Assembly (NCBI GenBank): GCA_012727955.1
Contig: JAAYGB010000028.1
Location: forward strand, 1-34,382
Direction: 5' to 3'
Source: Bacillota bacterium
GTDB taxonomy: Bacteria > Bacillota > Limnochordia > DTU087 > JAAYGB01
DNA length: 34,382 nt
A program made the position numbers and the translations under genes. Position 1 is the first letter of the stretch. Every line of letters begins with the position of its first letter. Positions 2,464-10,526 of the stretch are shown here, in pieces. The notes beneath the pieces were generated by a model that worked only from the letters and a program-made list of their open reading frames with translations, was not told where the DNA came from and searched no databases.

Positions 2464-2501
2464 GCAGCTATTAAGCAAGGTTGGGATTAAGGGGTGATCC
2501 A

Positions 2502-3539
2502 GTGGAAACACAGACTCTCAAACAGCTGGCGGCGGGAGAAGAGTGCAGCAGAGAGCAGTTGCTTGCCCTGGTGGAAGCAGAGAGCCCTTTGCAGCAAGCC
2601 CTTTGGGCCCAGGCGGATCGGGTGAGGGCAAGGTTCCTTGGCCAGGAAGTTCACCTGCGAGCTCTCATTGAGATTTCAAATTATTGCTGCTGTCACTGTC
2701 TTTATTGTGGGCTGCGCTCAGCCAACGGGCGCCTGCAGCGATATCGCATGTCCCCGGAAGAGATCGTAGACACGGCCAAGGAGGCCCTGCAGTTGGGATA
2801 CAAAACTGTTGTCCTGCAATCCGGGGAGGACCCTTGGTATGATGGCGACAAGATTGCCGGGATTGTATCAGAGATTAAGAAGCTGGGTCTGGCGGTAACT
2901 TTGAGTCTCGGTGAGCGCCGTCCCGAGGAGCTGGCCCTATGGCGTCGGGTTGGTGCCGATCGGTATTTGCTTAGACACGAAACCATCGATCGGGAGTTGT
3001 ATCAAGGGCTCCATCCCGGCAGGAGTCTCGAGGCGCGACTGGAGACCCTGGAACAGTTGCGGAGATTGGGGTATCAGGTGGGTGCCGGTATGATGGTGGG
3101 CTTGCCGCAACAAAGGACTGAAACATTGGTGGAGGATCTGTTGTTCCTGCGTCGTTTGCCTGTGGATATGGCTGGAATTGGCCCCTTTGTTGCCAATGGC
3201 TCCACCCCCTTAGCCGATGCGCCCAGTGGCAGGGTCGATAGAACGTTGAATGTCGTCGCCCTAGCTCGTCTTTTGATGCCCTATGCCCACCTGCCAGCAA
3301 CGACAGCCCTGGGAGCCCTGGAGTCCCAGGGTCGCTGGGCCGCCCTGCAGGTTGGTGCTAATGTAGTCATGCCCAATATTACTCCCAGGGAGTATCGAGA
3401 CAAATATGAGTTGTATCCCAATAAAAATTCCATCCAAGGCTCTAATTCCGATGCCAGGGAGAACATCGAGAAGGTCTTACAGGGACTGAATAGACGGATA
3501 GGTCAGGGCTATGGTCATAGCCGCTTGGTGGGTGGATGA
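2502..3539 (+). CDS. hydE: [FeFe]-hydrogenase H-cluster radical SAM maturase HydE
   Basis: This is a cytoplasmic radical SAM enzyme that, with HydG and HydF, builds the 2Fe subcluster of the [FeFe]-hydrogenase H-cluster. The Cys-x3-Cys-x2-Cys motif binding the SAM [4Fe-4S] cluster is clear (ISNYC...CLYCGLR; C62, C66, C69 from this start). HydE-like blocks follow: VLQSGEDPWY, LSLGERRPEEL, LLRHETIDRELYQGLHPG, MMVGLPQQRTETL and the C-terminal PNITPREYRDKYELYPNK. The optional second C-terminal cysteine cluster found in some HydE proteins is absent; it is dispensable in studied members. GTG 2502 is preferred over the upstream TTG 2481 because AAGGGG at 2489-2494 is spaced 7 nt from it. Length (345 residues) is normal. 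It is co-transcribed with hydG. Confidence 0.93.
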   Translation: METQTLKQLAAGEECSREQLLALVEAESPLQQALWAQADRVRARFLGQEVHLRALIEISNYCCCHCLYCGLRSANGRLQRYRMSPEEIVDTAKEALQLGYKTVVLQSGEDPWYDGDKIAGIVSEIKKLGLAVTLSLGERRPEELALWRRVGADRYLLRHETIDRELYQGLHPGRSLEARLETLEQLRRLGYQVGAGMMVGLPQQRTETLVEDLLFLRRLPVDMAGIGPFVANGSTPLADAPSGRVDRTLNVVALARLLMPYAHLPATTALGALESQGRWAALQVGANVVMPNITPREYRDKYELYPNKNSIQGSNSDARENIEKVLQGLNRRIGQGYGHSRLVGG

Positions 3540-3572
3540 AGATACTGAAATAATGGCAGGGGGATGTTCAAA

Positions 3573-5054
3573 GTGGCTAAGCTAGTTGAATGGGAGAATC
3601 AAAGGCAACCCGTTGATTTTATCGATGATGAGGAGATTTGGAGCACGATTCATCGAGCCGAAACCCGCAAGTCTGATCCCGGGGTGACAAGGCAGCTGCT
3701 GGAGGCCATCGAAGCTGCCGCCCAGGGCAAAGCATTGCCCGGTTGGGCTGTGGCCGATCTGTTAGTCAACGATGATCCCGAGGTGGAACAGGCGGCCTTT
3801 GCAGCGGCAAGGCAAGTGAAGGAAAGCATCTACGGCAACAGAGTGGTGCTATTTGCCCCGTTGTATATCAGTAACTACTGTGTCAATGCCTGTACCTATT
3901 GCGGCTACAACTGCAAGAACAACCTGCAGCGACGGCGGTTGACATTGAAGGAGATTGCTGAGGAAGTGCGGATCCTAGAGGCCATGGGGCATAAACGTCT
4001 GGCCCTGGAGGCCGGGGAAGATCCAGTAAACTGTCCGATTGAATATGTCGTGGACGCGATTGAGACCATCTACGATACCCTTCAGGATAATGGTGCGATC
4101 CGCCGAGTCAACGTCAACATTGCTGCCACGGTAATCGAGGATTACGAAAAACTGAAGGCTGCAGGTATTGGCACCTATGTCCTTTTTCAGGAGACCTACC
4201 ATCGGCCAACCTATGAAGCCGTTCATCCTCGGGGGCCTAAGCATTGCTATGAGTGGCACACCATGGCGATGGATCGGGCCATGATGGGGGGAATCGATGA
4301 TGTCGGCATTGGAGTCCTGTACGGCTTGTATGATCATCGGTTTGAGGTTCTGGCTACCCTGCGTCATGTGCGCCATCTAGAAGAAGTCTTTGGCGTTGGT
4401 CCCCATACAATTTCAGTGCCTCGGTTGCGGCCCGCCGAAGGTGTCAGCCTAGACAATTACCCCTATCTGGTCTCCGACGCAGATTTCATGAAATTGGTGG
4501 CGGTGCTGCGCTTGGCCGTACCCTATACTGGACTAATTCTGTCAACTCGGGAAACTCCGAAGATGAGAAGTACTTTGCTGAATCTTGGGGTGTCCCAGTT
4601 GAGTGCCGGATCTAACACCGGAGTGGGAGGGTACCAAGAAGCCAGTCGTTCGAAGGCAAAGTCCCATAGTGGTTTGGAGACAACACCGGCATCAAGTATT
4701 GCCGACCCTCCTCAGTTTAGTCTCCATGATCACCGGAGCCTCGATGAGGTGGTTTGTAGCTTGGCTGAGTCTGGGTACTTGCCCAGTTTCTGCACTGCCT
4801 GCTATCGCCAGGGAAGAACAGGGGATCGCTTCATGGCTTTGGCTAAGAGCGGGCAGATTCAACATGTTTGTCAGCCCAATGCCCTCTTGACTCTACAGGA
4901 GTTTATCATGGACTACGGGAACGATGCTACCCGGCAGGCGGGGGAGCAGCTGATTGCCAAGGAGCTGGAGACCCTGTCCGGTACTGAAGTAGGCAAAAAA
5001 CTAGAGCAAGACCTTAAGGCCCTTCGCTGTGGGCGGCGGGATATCTATTACTAA
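3573..5054 (+). CDS. hydG: [FeFe]-hydrogenase maturase HydG (tyrosine lyase)
   Basis: HydG cleaves tyrosine by radical SAM chemistry, giving p-cresol, CO and cyanide, and delivers an Fe(CO)2(CN) synthon for the H-cluster. Two cluster sites are visible, numbered from the in-frame ATG at 3564. The N-terminal SAM motif is YCVNACTYCGY (C106, C110, C113). The C-terminal auxiliary site is C-x2-C-x22-C (C410, C413, C436; CTACYRQGRTGDRFM...HVCQPN), the hallmark separating HydG from ThiH. LEAGEDP, FQETYHRPTYEAVHP and the SAGSNTGVGGY segment also fit. GTG 3573 is preferred because AGGGGG abuts ATG 3564 but is 9 nt from the GTG; the ATG would add three residues. It is 33 nt downstream of hydE and 30 nt before hydF. 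Confidence 0.95.
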   Translation: MAKLVEWENQRQPVDFIDDEEIWSTIHRAETRKSDPGVTRQLLEAIEAAAQGKALPGWAVADLLVNDDPEVEQAAFAAARQVKESIYGNRVVLFAPLYISNYCVNACTYCGYNCKNNLQRRRLTLKEIAEEVRILEAMGHKRLALEAGEDPVNCPIEYVVDAIETIYDTLQDNGAIRRVNVNIAATVIEDYEKLKAAGIGTYVLFQETYHRPTYEAVHPRGPKHCYEWHTMAMDRAMMGGIDDVGIGVLYGLYDHRFEVLATLRHVRHLEEVFGVGPHTISVPRLRPAEGVSLDNYPYLVSDADFMKLVAVLRLAVPYTGLILSTRETPKMRSTLLNLGVSQLSAGSNTGVGGYQEASRSKAKSHSGLETTPASSIADPPQFSLHDHRSLDEVVCSLAESGYLPSFCTACYRQGRTGDRFMALAKSGQIQHVCQPNALLTLQEFIMDYGNDATRQAGEQLIAKELETLSGTEVGKKLEQDLKALRCGRRDIYY

Positions 5055-6392: not shown

Positions 6393-7622
6393 GTGAGCGA
6401 ATTAATTAACAATCGGGAGTATCGGCAGCAGGAGTTAAAGGAGATCATCAAGGACCTGCACCGGGGGAAGTCTGTGGATGAGGTGAAGGAGCGCTTTCAA
6501 AGACTAATCAAGGACATAGGACCTAGCGAGATTGCTCTCTTGGAGCAAAGACTCATCGATGAGGGCCTTCCCGAAGAGGAGATTACCCGGTTGTGTGATG
6601 TCCACGTCAGCATCTTCAAAGACGCCTTGGATCTGCAGCCGGAACCGGAGCATATCCCGGGTCATCCCCTGCATACCTTTCGGGCGGAGAACGAAGTAAT
6701 CCGTAAGTTGTCCACTGAAATTCGCCAGCTAGTGCAGCAGCTAAAGGATTCTGAAAGGGTCACCGAGGAAGAGCTGGACAAGTGGCGCCAGCTGCACACC
6801 CAGCTATTGGAGATCGAAAGGCACTATAGCCGCAAGGAAAACATCCTCTTTCCCTATCTGGAGAAAAACGGGATCAGCGGCCCTCCCAGTGTGATGTGGT
6901 CGATTCACGATGAGATCCGTGGCGGTCTCAAGGAGATCACTAGGCTGCTGGAGGCTGCTTCTCCTGGGGAATCCGCCGAGCTACAGCAGGGGATCCCGTC
7001 GGTTGTTTTGCCTACCTTGCAGGCCATCGATGACATGGTCTATAAGGAAAACAGTATCCTGTTTCCCATGGCCCAGGAAACCCTTACCGAGGATGAGTGG
7101 AAGGAGATCTTTGATCAAAGCGATGAGATCGGCTATACCCAAGTCACTCCCAGTCAAGAGTGGCGACGAAGGGAGGGGGCGGAGACTCGAGCCCTTAAGG
7201 CCCGGGCCCAGCACCCTGAGGGCGCCCTGGAGCTTCCGACGGGAGTTCTCACCTTGAAACAGATTGAGTTGATGCTCAACCACCTGCCGGTGGACATCAC
7301 CTTCGTTGATCAGCATGATACAGTGCGCTATTTCTCTCAGAGTGCAGAGCGGATCTTTCCCCGCACGCCCGCTATTATTGGTCGGAAGGTAGAAAGGTGT
7401 CATCCACCGGAGAGTGTCCATGTGGTAACCCAGATTGTGGAAGATTTTCGGGCGGGCACCAGGGATACCGCGGAATTCTGGATCAATATGAAGGGGAATT
7501 TGATTTACATCCGCTATTTCGCTGTGCGGGATGAACAGGGCGAGTATCAAGGGGTGGTGGAGGTGACGCAGAACGTCACTGCCATCAAGCAGCTGGAGGG
7601 AGAAAAGCGTTTGCTAGACTAG
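6393..7622 (+). CDS. DUF438 / hemerythrin-like / PAS domain sensor protein
   Basis: A 409-residue cytoplasmic protein with three recognisable parts. Residues about 10-80 are a helical DUF438 domain (LKEIIKDLHRGKSVDEVKERF). Residues about 88-235 are a hemerythrin-like four-helix bundle with candidate di-iron ligands H91/H94, H135, H144, E149 (HYSRKENILFPYLE), H172 (SIHDEIRGGL) and E219 (YKENSILFPM). Residues about 280-405 are a PAS domain of the PAS_10 type (FVDQHDTVRYFSQSAERIFPR...GNLIYIRYFAVRDEQGEYQGVVEV). Proteins of this architecture are thought to sense oxygen, NO or redox state or to help repair nitrosative damage; no output domain is visible. The GTG start has AGAGGGGG upstream. It sits 120 nt downstream of hydF, fitting a protective or sensing role beside oxygen-sensitive hydrogenase assembly. 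Confidence 0.88.
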   Translation: MSELINNREYRQQELKEIIKDLHRGKSVDEVKERFQRLIKDIGPSEIALLEQRLIDEGLPEEEITRLCDVHVSIFKDALDLQPEPEHIPGHPLHTFRAENEVIRKLSTEIRQLVQQLKDSERVTEEELDKWRQLHTQLLEIERHYSRKENILFPYLEKNGISGPPSVMWSIHDEIRGGLKEITRLLEAASPGESAELQQGIPSVVLPTLQAIDDMVYKENSILFPMAQETLTEDEWKEIFDQSDEIGYTQVTPSQEWRRREGAETRALKARAQHPEGALELPTGVLTLKQIELMLNHLPVDITFVDQHDTVRYFSQSAERIFPRTPAIIGRKVERCHPPESVHVVTQIVEDFRAGTRDTAEFWINMKGNLIYIRYFAVRDEQGEYQGVVEVTQNVTAIKQLEGEKRLLD

Positions 7623-7641
7623 ACTCTGGCTATCAGGGCCT

Positions 7642-7670
7642 TTGTCAGTGGACCAACTGCATGAAATATT
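7642..7670 (+). promoter_or_regulatory. Likely promoter of the MBL hydrolase gene
   Basis: TTGTCA (7642-7647, 5 of 6 consensus bases) and AATATT (7665-7670, 4 of 6) are spaced 17 nt. The predicted start near 7677 falls directly in front of a terminator-like hairpin, so the transcript would begin with an attenuator. Confidence 0.45.
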
Positions 7671-7679
7671 GACTTCGAT

Positions 7680-7730
7680 GCCGAAGTAGAAGGAGACCAA
7701 GCATGGATCCAGGACTACTTCGGCTTTTTG
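7680..7730 (+). terminator. Terminator-like hairpin ahead of the MBL gene
   Basis: GCCGAAGTAG (7680-7689) pairs perfectly with CTACTTCGGC (7715-7724) across a 25-nt loop and is followed by TTTTTG. The loop holds an AAGGAG site and an ATG (7703) in frame with the MBL gene. The 5' arm can also pair with ACTTCG at 7672-7677, a mutually exclusive small hairpin. It may simply end the DUF438 transcript, or act as an attenuator for the next gene. Confidence 0.65.
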
Positions 7731-7753
7731 TTGTACCAGTGGAGGTGACAATT

Positions 7754-8584
7754 TTGCAATTACTTCTGTCCGGTGGAATCGCGGTATTCCGCAGCCACTT
7801 CCTGATGACCAACTCGGTGATTATCAGGGGGCGGGACTTTATCGCACTCATTGACCCAGCCTATTATCCCGATGAAGTGGAAGTTTTGGGTGAGGTGGTG
7901 GCGAGATCCAACAAGCCAGAGACCTACTGTTTATACACTCATTTCGACTACGATCATGTAGTGGATCCCCGCAATCTTCAGGCTTATCGCGTTGCGTCTC
8001 AGGCCGTCTTGGAGAGAGACTTAGAAGGTGAAGTCAGACTGTGGCAGGAAATGGATCAACGGCTATATGTGGAGCGTGAAGACTATACAATGCCAGAGCC
8101 CGATTACCTGGTGGCAGGCCGAAGGGAGACCATTGACCTTGGAGAGGAAGAGCTGGTGGCGGTGCCGCTGCCGGGACATACCGCCGATGGCTTGGTCTTC
8201 ATATTCCCCGCTCGGCGGGTAGCTGTGGTGGGAGATATGCTGTCGGACAAAGAATTTCCCTTTGTCAACGATAGCCTAACGGCATATCGACAGTCCCTTC
8301 TAACCCTGCGGCGACTGGTGGAGAAATATCAGATCGACCTGGTTATCCCTGGTCATGGAAACGTCGCCCAGGGTAGTGAAATAGAGCAGCGGATTGAAGC
8401 CGACCTTCAATATCTTGCGGCGCTGTCCACTGCGGCCCAGGTTTCTGCCGGCAGGTCAGAGACAGAAATCGCTGTCCTATGTGGGGAGATTAGGTACAAG
8501 AACCGACCAATTCCTTCGTGGCAGCAAGAGGAACACCGCAACAATCTGCTGAGGGCAATCTGTGAACATAATACAGAAAAGTGA
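7754..8584 (+). CDS. Metallo-beta-lactamase-fold hydrolase
   Basis: A 276-residue MBL-fold protein. From the TTG start, the metal motif reads T-H63-F-D65-Y-D67-H68, where the family's usual HxHxDH has Asp in place of the second His. The later ligands are present: PLPGHTADG, VVGDMLSD and VIPGHGN. No membrane or extra domains are seen; the substrate is unknown and the protein is probably cytoplasmic. TTG 7754 is chosen because GGAGGTG lies 7-8 nt upstream and the 5' region holds a terminator-like hairpin. The in-frame ATG 7703, with its own AGGAG, would add 17 residues translated across that hairpin. A role in thioester or lactone hydrolysis or detoxification cannot be told apart from sequence. 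Confidence 0.85.
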   Translation: MQLLLSGGIAVFRSHFLMTNSVIIRGRDFIALIDPAYYPDEVEVLGEVVARSNKPETYCLYTHFDYDHVVDPRNLQAYRVASQAVLERDLEGEVRLWQEMDQRLYVEREDYTMPEPDYLVAGRRETIDLGEEELVAVPLPGHTADGLVFIFPARRVAVVGDMLSDKEFPFVNDSLTAYRQSLLTLRRLVEKYQIDLVIPGHGNVAQGSEIEQRIEADLQYLAALSTAAQVSAGRSETEIAVLCGEIRYKNRPIPSWQQEEHRNNLLRAICEHNTEK

Positions 8585-8690
8585 GGCTTGCCAGATAAAT
8601 AAAAAGGAGTTATCGCCAGGATAGTGAATATTTAGAGTGGATTTGTGCGCTCACCAGGCTTTCTATTACGCATGGAGGGGAGACGGTATA

Positions 8691-9665
8691 GTGAAGATCA
8701 AGGTTGGGTTTGTAGGTTGTGGCGGTATCGCTCGGTGGCATGTCAGTCATCTGGAGAAGATGGATGACGTAGCTATCGTTGCAGCCTGTGACGTGATCCC
8801 TGAACGGGCCGAGGCCTTGGCAAAGCCCTTTGGAGCTAGGACCTATACTTGTCACAATGACATGTATGAAAATGAAGATCTGGATGCCGTTTTCATCTGT
8901 ATTCCTCCGGACCAGCATACCGATACTGAAACTGCAGCAGTGGCTAGGGGATTTCACATCTTTGTCCAGAAGCCAATGGCGCTGTGCATGGAGAAAGCCC
9001 ATGAGGTTGCCGATGCCATTGAGAAAGCCGGGGTTGTCTCTGCCGTTGGGTTCCAGGATCGCTACCTGGATATCAGCGACAGCCTAATCGAGTTTTTGAA
9101 AGACAAGAAGGTGGGTCTCTTTACCGGTGCCTGGGTCGGGGGCGTTCCCGGTGTTCCCTGGTGGCCGATCAAGGCCCAGTCGGGAGGACAAGTGGTGGAG
9201 CAGACCATCCACCTCTACGATATGGCCCGCATGTACTTCGGTGAGGTTGAAACCGTATACTGTGCCTCCGGTAAGGGGATTGTGCAGGGCGTCGAAAACT
9301 ACGATGTTGAGGACTATTCTTCTGTCACCATGACCTTTGCCAATGGTATCGTAGGTACAATCACCACTGGTGACTACCTAACCGAGGCTGCTCCCCGTAA
9401 CGGACTGGAGATCTATACTCCCGAGGTAAGAATTGAGTACGAACTCCGCAGTGCCGTTCGCTATTATTCTCGGACTCGATCCTGGGAAGAGCGACGGGTA
9501 AGAGATCAGGGCTACGACTGTGACCGAGCCTTTATCGACGCAGTCAAGGCCAAGGATCCCACCGCGGTGCGCTCACCCTATAAGGATGCTTTGCGGTCCC
9601 TGGCTGTGACCTTGGCAGCCAACAAGTCCATGGAGACAGGGCAGGCTGTAAAGGTTGAGTATTAG
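8691..9665 (+). CDS. Gfo/Idh/MocA-family NAD(P)-dependent oxidoreductase
   Basis: A 324-residue sugar or inositol dehydrogenase-like enzyme. The N-terminal Rossmann fold starts with VGFVGCGGIARWH (GxGGIA dinucleotide loop). It is followed by CDVIPERAEALAKPFG, FICIPPDQHTD and FVQKPMAL, which is the family EKP motif with Gln for Glu but the catalytic Lys kept. The C-terminal domain carries GGQVVEQTIHLYDMARMYFG with the His and Asp expected near the active site. GTG 8691 is preferred, with GGAGGGG about 10 nt upstream; an upstream in-frame GTG (8637) has no site. It is followed 56 nt later by a TIM-barrel isomerase, a common pairing in sugar acid or inositol-like catabolism. The actual substrate is unknown. 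Confidence 0.88.
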   Translation: MKIKVGFVGCGGIARWHVSHLEKMDDVAIVAACDVIPERAEALAKPFGARTYTCHNDMYENEDLDAVFICIPPDQHTDTETAAVARGFHIFVQKPMALCMEKAHEVADAIEKAGVVSAVGFQDRYLDISDSLIEFLKDKKVGLFTGAWVGGVPGVPWWPIKAQSGGQVVEQTIHLYDMARMYFGEVETVYCASGKGIVQGVENYDVEDYSSVTMTFANGIVGTITTGDYLTEAAPRNGLEIYTPEVRIEYELRSAVRYYSRTRSWEERRVRDQGYDCDRAFIDAVKAKDPTAVRSPYKDALRSLAVTLAANKSMETGQAVKVEY

Positions 9666-9721
9666 GGTCTGACAAGGCTCTTTCCTAAGCCCATTTCTTA
9701 ACTACAAGGGAGCGATATCCC

Positions 9722-10483
9722 GTGCGGTTATCAGCCTGTATTGACATAATGATGCGGGACCTATCCATACCGGAACGTATTGCCCAGGTCAAGGCGGCGG
9801 GGATGGACGGCGTGGAGTTTTGGAGCTGGGAAAACAAGGACACAGCCGAGCTTAAAGACGGGGCAAAACAGCATGGTATTGAGATAGCTGCCTTCTGTAC
9901 TCGGTTCTGCTCCCTAGTGGATCCTCAAAGGCGAGCGGAATATCTCGAGGGTCTGAAGGCTTCGATTCCAATAGCTCGAGAGTTAAACTGTACCAACCTG
10001 ATTACTCAGACCGGTGCGGAACTCCCTGACGTAAGTCGGGAAGACCAGAAGGAGTCTCTCATTGCCGGGCTGAGGGAGTGTGTACCTTTATTGGAGGAAA
10101 ACGGCATCACCCTGTTGGTGGAGCCCCTTAATATCCTCGTGGATCACAAGGGATACTTTTTGTACCGCTCAGAGGAAGCCTTTGAGATTATCCGAGCTGT
10201 GGATAGTCCCTATGTGAAAGTGCTGTATGATGTCTATCATCAGCAAATCACCGAGGGCAATCTCATCCCAACGATTCAGGAGAATATCGACCTAATTGGA
10301 CATTTCCACGTTGCCGATCATCCCGGCCGGACAGAGCCCGGAACCGGTGAGATCAACTACCGTCGGGTATTTGAGGCTATCGCGGAGACGGGGTACGATG
10401 GATGGGTAGGGATGGAGTTTCGGCCGACGATAGCAGCCGTCGATGCCCTCAGACAGGTAGTGGCCTTGGCTGAAGGCCTGTGA
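9722..10483 (+). CDS. Hydroxypyruvate isomerase-like TIM-barrel sugar isomerase/epimerase
   Basis: A 253-residue xylose-isomerase-like TIM barrel (AP_endonuc_2 fold) close to the Hyi group. The metal and substrate residues expected are visible: Glu in LLVEPLN, Asp in VLYDVYHQQ, His in FHVADHPGRTEPGTGEINY and Glu in VGMEFRP. The GRTEPGTGEINYRRVFEAI block is characteristic of hydroxypyruvate isomerase relatives. The enzyme probably interconverts a keto and an aldo form of a small sugar acid or sugar, after oxidation by the upstream dehydrogenase. GTG 9722 is preceded by AAGGGAG. Transcription ends at a hairpin 18 nt after the stop. Substrate identity is inference. Confidence 0.85.
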   Translation: MRLSACIDIMMRDLSIPERIAQVKAAGMDGVEFWSWENKDTAELKDGAKQHGIEIAAFCTRFCSLVDPQRRAEYLEGLKASIPIARELNCTNLITQTGAELPDVSREDQKESLIAGLRECVPLLEENGITLLVEPLNILVDHKGYFLYRSEEAFEIIRAVDSPYVKVLYDVYHQQITEGNLIPTIQENIDLIGHFHVADHPGRTEPGTGEINYRRVFEAIAETGYDGWVGMEFRPTIAAVDALRQVVALAEGL

Positions 10484-10500: not shown

Positions 10501-10526
10501 AGCCCGGAGCGAGAACGCTCCGGGCT
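10501..10526. terminator. Bidirectional terminator hairpin between convergent operons
   Basis: AGCCCGGAGCG and CGCTCCGGGCT form a perfect 11-bp stem around AGAA. It sits between the plus-strand isomerase gene and the minus-strand oppF-like gene. The U-tracts are short on both sides, so termination may lean on the very strong stem. Confidence 0.7.

Follow-up and report, generated by a model that had tools for sequence, protein, structure and literature searches.

A likely intrinsic terminator in the tandem gap between a DUF438 gene and an MBL-fold gene of a Bacillota bacterium

The vmlR leader of Bacillus subtilis, as described in the available part of its report, is 219 nt long, contains four stem-loops and carries an SD sequence before a tripeptide uORF, the elements named being the uORF, an antiterminator and a terminator (PMC9226507). 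For Escherichia coli, the accessible text of another report states that a test terminator lying more than about 30 bp past a stop codon works at near maximal efficiency, about 0.9, that an active start codon 30 bp ahead of a terminator lowers its efficiency by only about 10% compared with a silenced one, and that pause sites can couple the ribosome and the polymerase in special leaders (PMC4824070). A further system for comparison lies in the DNA analyzed here, a stretch of 34,382 nucleotides referred to below as the window. On its minus strand, at 1718-1511, a purine riboswitch (RF00167, 52.4 bits) with an upstream promoter-like site and an 11-bp terminator hairpin stands ahead of a permease gene. 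The permease frame behind it (69-1424, minus) is in two pieces, 1137-1424 and 69-1121; the latter, the sole piece searched, matches Xan_ur_permease beginning at profile position 96. This suggests an interrupted gene or an assembly error.

The hairpin studied here lies between a DUF438 gene and an MBL-fold gene (Table 1). It resembles the intrinsic terminators that stand between tandem genes of operons, with a GC-containing perfect stem, a U-tract, a stop codon nearby and the next gene close, and eight other such hits were found in a sample of the same genome. It differs in a 25-nt loop that holds an SD-like motif and an ATG. The purine riboswitch attenuator (1686-1511, minus), whose terminator hairpin served as the positive control, is similar in the size of its hairpin, in its TTTTTGTT tail and in its upstream promoter-like site; however, it places an aptamer of 102 nt between the promoter-like site and the terminator, where the studied hairpin has nothing. 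With a vmlR-type leader the locus shares a terminator before the gene and possibly a tiny ORF on the 5' arm, but, set against the described part of that leader, there is here neither room nor an SD sequence before 7678 (PMC9226507). The frame in question, ATG-CCG-AAG-TAG at 7678-7689, has three codons and no ribosome-binding site and probably arose by chance.

We read the hairpin and its U-tract as an intrinsic (Rho-independent) terminator of the ordinary kind, placed in a tight gap between tandem genes, with the MBL-fold gene beyond it reached by readthrough, and we give this reading a probability of about 0.72. Judged from its position and shape, the terminator would close the transcription of an apparent hydE-hydG-hydF-DUF438 unit 57 nt past the DUF438 stop codon, a distance within the near-maximal-efficiency range given in the accessible text on E. 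coli, which counts for an end-of-unit terminator (PMC4824070). The MBL-fold gene would be transcribed through an incomplete terminator, perhaps with some addition from a weak promoter at 7642-7670, and would be translated from TTG 7754 with GGAGGTGA in front, a step supported by comparison with relatives. The AAGGAG and ATG of the loop and the ACTTCG complement would most likely be incidental. Constant and regulated readthrough are indistinguishable from sequence, and there is little support for a regulated switch or for a gene start inside the hairpin. If the terminator reading is right, the consequences are small: the likely MBL-fold start codon moves to TTG 7754, and a unit boundary falls between the hydrogenase-maturation genes and the MBL-fold gene.

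Table 1. Features of the gap and its flanking genes, in window coordinates
Feature	Position	Strand	Basis or remark
DUF438-hemerythrin-PAS gene, last of the apparent hydE-hydG-hydF-DUF438 unit	6393..7622	+	Pfam PF04282, PF01814, PF13596; TAG stop 7620-7622
Possible sigma-A promoter, TTGTCA-17-AATATT, TG before the -10	7642..7670	+	good for the gap, chance-level for the window
TTGACTTCG, holds ACTTCG	7669..7677	+	possible relic; letters 1-8 identical to the -35 region in the tRNA-Val operon promoter of same-order relatives
Putative intrinsic terminator hairpin	7680..7724	+	10-bp perfect stem, 25-nt loop
AAGGAG (7690-7695) and in-frame ATG (7703) in the loop	7690..7705	+	probably not the main start
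U-tract TTTTTGTT	7725..7732	+	tail matches the terminator hairpin behind the window's purine riboswitch
Ribosome-binding site GGAGGTGA and likely TTG start codon of the MBL-fold gene	7741..7756	+	relatives, motif count
MBL-fold hydrolase gene, 276 residues from TTG	7754..8584	+	Pfam PF00753; relatives

The anatomy that an earlier note had described for this DNA is real. The arms GCCGAAGTAG (7680-7689) and CTACTTCGGC (7715-7724) form ten perfect pairs, six of them G-C, with a stability of -20.8 kcal/mol, and TTTTTGTT follows directly after the stem; AAGGAG and an in-frame ATG are present in the loop, and ACTTCG upstream has its complement. Could such a hairpin act otherwise than as a terminator? 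The stem starts about 3 nt past the transcription start predicted below, and a hairpin at the extreme 5' end of the MBL mRNA might guard it against decay while terminating poorly. We regard this as very unlikely, as the T5 in the tail and the GC-rich base of the stem adjoining it are terminator features and the terminator hairpin of the riboswitch bears the same tail.

The RNA of 7677-7740 (64 nt) folded at -22.0 kcal/mol with a z of -3.07, and none of 200 shuffles was equally stable; for 7671-7740 the z was -3.11 (2 of 200 shuffles equally stable), and the whole leader, 7625-7756, was unremarkable (z = -1.30, 22 of 200). With three mismatches allowed, the exact hairpin pattern occurred once in the window against 0.02 expected, in a test made generous by drawing the pattern from the tested sequence itself. 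Terminator-like stems of at least 10 bp numbered seven in the window, one symmetrical hairpin being taken on both strands, as compared with 0.87 in Markov shuffles, and between 2481 and 10500 this hairpin is the sole plus-strand terminator-like site with a stem of at least 8 bp. A simple terminator scan that permits loops of 8 at most, as against 25 nt here, returned no sites. Rfam covariance models at a permissive threshold gave only two chance-level matches, to a lncRNA family and a microRNA family (best E 1.6), and no second copy of the 201 bases around the hairpin was found in its own genome. The perfect stem, the U-tract and the stability beyond chance uphold the view that a credible intrinsic terminator precedes the MBL-fold gene.

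The habits of the genome were surveyed in a sample of 294,382 bases, made up of the window and 13 stretches and amounting to about 13% of the genome. It yielded 69 terminator-like hits, symmetrical hairpins counting twice, of which 49 were intergenic. The crude gene finder used picks the longest ORFs, and three of the hairpins (this one, L068 531 and L072 4412) overlap a called start. Loops of at least 16 nt were found in 16 of the 49 intergenic hits, and nine of the 49, this hairpin included, stood in tandem gaps, flanked on each side by a same-strand gene no more than 100 nt away, as counted by eye; neither the loop length nor the position is therefore odd here.

Upstream of the hairpin, TTGTCA (7642-7647) and AATATT (7665-7670), with a 17-nt spacer, make a possible promoter candidate, from which, given the usual distance to the -10, transcription is predicted to start at about 7677. 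Consensus counting gave a match of 9 out of 12 letters and 3 sites in 2.5 kb as compared with 1.8 expected, which is chance-level. When scored with an approximate matrix, the site reached 12.45; three sites on the plus strand (this one included) and one on the minus strand scored as high or higher, against 1.9 per strand in shuffles. By the same matrix the site ranks fourth when both strands of the window are taken together, and of the three that score higher two lie inside genes. When the 131-nt gap was shuffled, 0.9% of the resulting sequences scored as high. Past the hairpin we found no plausible sigma-A-type promoter, the best score there being 1.5, a value equalled or exceeded at 4% of all positions; the MBL-fold gene is therefore probably reached through the hairpin. 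To this extent the proposal of a terminator ahead of the gene, passed by readthrough, is borne out.

A promoter that scores well for its gap, followed by a terminator, is an attenuator-like arrangement and stands against our reading. RNA from the 7642-7670 promoter could stop at the hairpin unless a signal, be it a protein, stalled ribosomes or nucleotide levels, prevented the hairpin from forming, and the MBL-fold gene would in this way be switched. The rarity of the promoter score in shuffled gaps, the lack of a plausible promoter past the hairpin and the strength of the terminator all favor such a regulated attenuator, but the stretch from the start at about 7677 to the stem at 7680 leaves no room for a leader, an aptamer or an antiterminator, whereas the riboswitch of the window has its long aptamer at just this place. 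Rfam gave no match beyond chance, and the leaders of the 14 distant MBL-fold relatives are unlike one another. We consider a regulated attenuator unlikely.

The switch had also been thought to work by competing hairpins. ACTTCG (7672-7677) is complementary to CGAAGT (7682-7687) on the 5' arm; a 6-nt complement upstream of the arm appears in 3.1% of upstream gaps after shuffling and in 3.8% of random 40-mers. The alternative helix has -5.4 kcal/mol as compared with -20.8 kcal/mol for the terminator. In RNAs starting at 7660 or 7671 its probability was 0.95-0.98 up to a 3' end at 7718, 0.89-0.95 at 7720 and 0.00 at 7724, and in RNA from 7623 it varied from 0.10 to 0.97; over the longer RNAs together it was 0.89-0.96 at 7720. 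All of these are equilibrium figures only, which a bound factor could alter. RNA from the predicted start lacks 7672-7676 and keeps only the last base of ACTTCG, so the predicted promoter and the competing hairpin are mutually exclusive; in longer RNAs the complete terminator wins. An antiterminator that beats the terminator within the same RNA was not found, and the competing hairpins find no support as a switch.

The terminator could conceivably sense where an RNA began, with RNAs read in from the hyd-DUF438 unit carrying ACUUCG and locally started ones lacking it. In the former, ACUUCG and the 5' arm would quickly form a 6-bp hairpin and delay the terminator until its last bases emerge; in the latter, transcription from the local promoter would end immediately. 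The MBL-fold gene would in that case be tied to transcription of the hyd unit instead of to its own promoter, which would be a simple, sensor-free coupling of a gene to its neighbor's transcription. This is the least probable of the ideas weighed here.

The DUF438 gene is preceded by two radical-SAM genes (2481-3539 and 3564-5054) and a hydF-like gene. From the radical-SAM domains and the gene order we take the first two to be hydE and hydG, and the four genes look like a hydrogenase-maturation unit. A literature search joining DUF438, hemerythrin, MBL and hydrogenase maturation brought nothing useful among the matches listed. The DNA following DUF438 was compared in 28 relative loci out of 54 match rows (30 fetched, minus our own locus and L025, which has no downstream DNA). 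The same-order matches comprised eight rows in 7 of 11 genomes, the second match in G003 standing outside the comparison; a contig scan with the DUF438 protein gave 13 further loci (L047-L059), also outside it. A terminator-like hairpin within 110 nt past DUF438 was present in 10 of the 28 loci, where shuffles gave 0.95 of 28 on average: 8 of 17 same-class loci, 2 of 5 same-phylum loci and none of the 6 same-order loci, one of which (L023) has a weak 7-bp hairpin at 132-149 after DUF438. Because such a hairpin is absent from all six same-order loci, the one studied here is not an inherited end of the DUF438 unit.

In these six same-order loci (L018-L023), DUF438 is followed by a strong promoter-like site and a tRNA operon, and in our window the MBL-fold gene takes the place of the tRNA. 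All six carry TTGACTTC as the -35 region of the promoter-like site, with TATAAT following, and tRNA-Val was called in five; the contig of L020 ends within tRNA-like sequence. TTGACTTC occurs once in the window, both strands counted, and here has no -10. The window holds no tRNA genes, the tRNA-Val genes found in this genome are on other contigs, and the pattern TTGACTTC-N8-18-TATAAT has no match in the genome. ACTTCG may stem from a relic -35 of the tRNA operon promoter that follows DUF438 in the same-order relatives.

Where does translation of the MBL-fold gene begin? The frame from ATG 7703 to TTG 7754 is open over 51 nt, or 17 codons, and the earlier note had suggested that ribosomes starting at the loop ATG break the hairpin and make a protein 17 residues longer. 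In favor of this, AAGGAG lies 7 nt before the ATG, no stop intervenes up to 7754, and in one relative, L003, an ATG in frame likewise stands 38 residues before the end of a TNS-like motif, albeit without SD. On the other side, 10 of the 14 relatives (L003-L010, L012 and L015) have an ATG, GTG or TTG exactly 21 residues before the motif end, as has TTG 7754; in the others start codons stand at 20 (L011, L016), at 24 (L013) and at 19 and 23 (L014). Several relatives have further in-frame start codons upstream. An extension from ATG 7703 shared by relatives was seen neither in the protein alignment, which takes in 11 of the 14 (L013, L015 and L016 left aside), nor in the start codons of all 14. 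In a predicted structure of the long form, residues 1-20 have a pLDDT below 50, which counts weakly in that the stretch is covered by no relative in the 12-sequence alignment. By our reckoning of the geometry, a ribosome on 7703 needs RNA to about 7718, when RNA polymerase would already be near or after the termination point, and the finding for E. coli, as given in the accessible text, that terminator efficiency depends only slightly on a start codon 30 bp upstream also speaks against translation opening the hairpin (PMC4824070). We hold the longer protein and a terminator opened by translation to be extremely unlikely.

The likely start is TTG 7754. The motif GGAGGTGA-N3-8-TTG has a single match in the window, where 0.13 would be expected, and non-ATG starts were chosen in 15 of the 25 other listed genes, a count inflated by the longest-ORF choice. 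Against our reading of the loop motif stands that AAGGAG with an ATG at good spacing is uncommon; the window has five such sites as compared with 2.7 expected, a number attained in 14 of 100 shuffles, and of the four besides this one at least two coincide with called gene starts. We also considered a recurring class of terminators with an SD sequence and an ATG in the loop and rejected it: AGGAG-N4-10-ATG-N8-32-TTTTT gave 12 matches in the genome, this site and one doubled site among them, against 11 in the reversed control. At the 10 other loci with this pattern only L081 (-23.0 kcal/mol) and L086 (-20.9 kcal/mol) fold strongly, the rest ranging from -3.0 to -10.5 kcal/mol; the ORF of L086 has 14 codons, and the hairpin of L081 is within an ORF of 199 codons.

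A search of 100 genomes, our own included, found one other match to the MBL-fold protein, outside the class; none of the 99 other genomes was from its own family. At E <= 1e-20 none of the 11 same-order and none of the 60 same-class genomes of that search had the gene, which was therefore probably acquired by this lineage or else lost from the others. Among 398 genomes of the phylum (own included) there were 14 other matches, 31-39% identical. A contig scan with the protein gave no close relatives, no close relative with the same leader was found, and a plasmid search gave eight weak relatives. When the distant leaders were scanned with the stem limit relaxed to 6 bp, at least one terminator-like match was present within 250 nt upstream of 6 of the 14 genes (L006, L007, L008, L012, L014 and L015), all different. 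By comparison with PDB and NCBIfam the protein belongs to the MBL superfamily. Metallo-beta-lactamases head the PDB matches with an E of 6e-7, and none of the 21 NCBIfam matches attains its cut-off; on these figures a beta-lactamase identity was not adopted. The MBL-fold gene is followed by genes for a GFO/IDH/MocA-type oxidoreductase and a xylose-isomerase-like protein (8637-10483), which may have arrived together with it, and then by a symmetrical terminator-like hairpin at 10501-10526.
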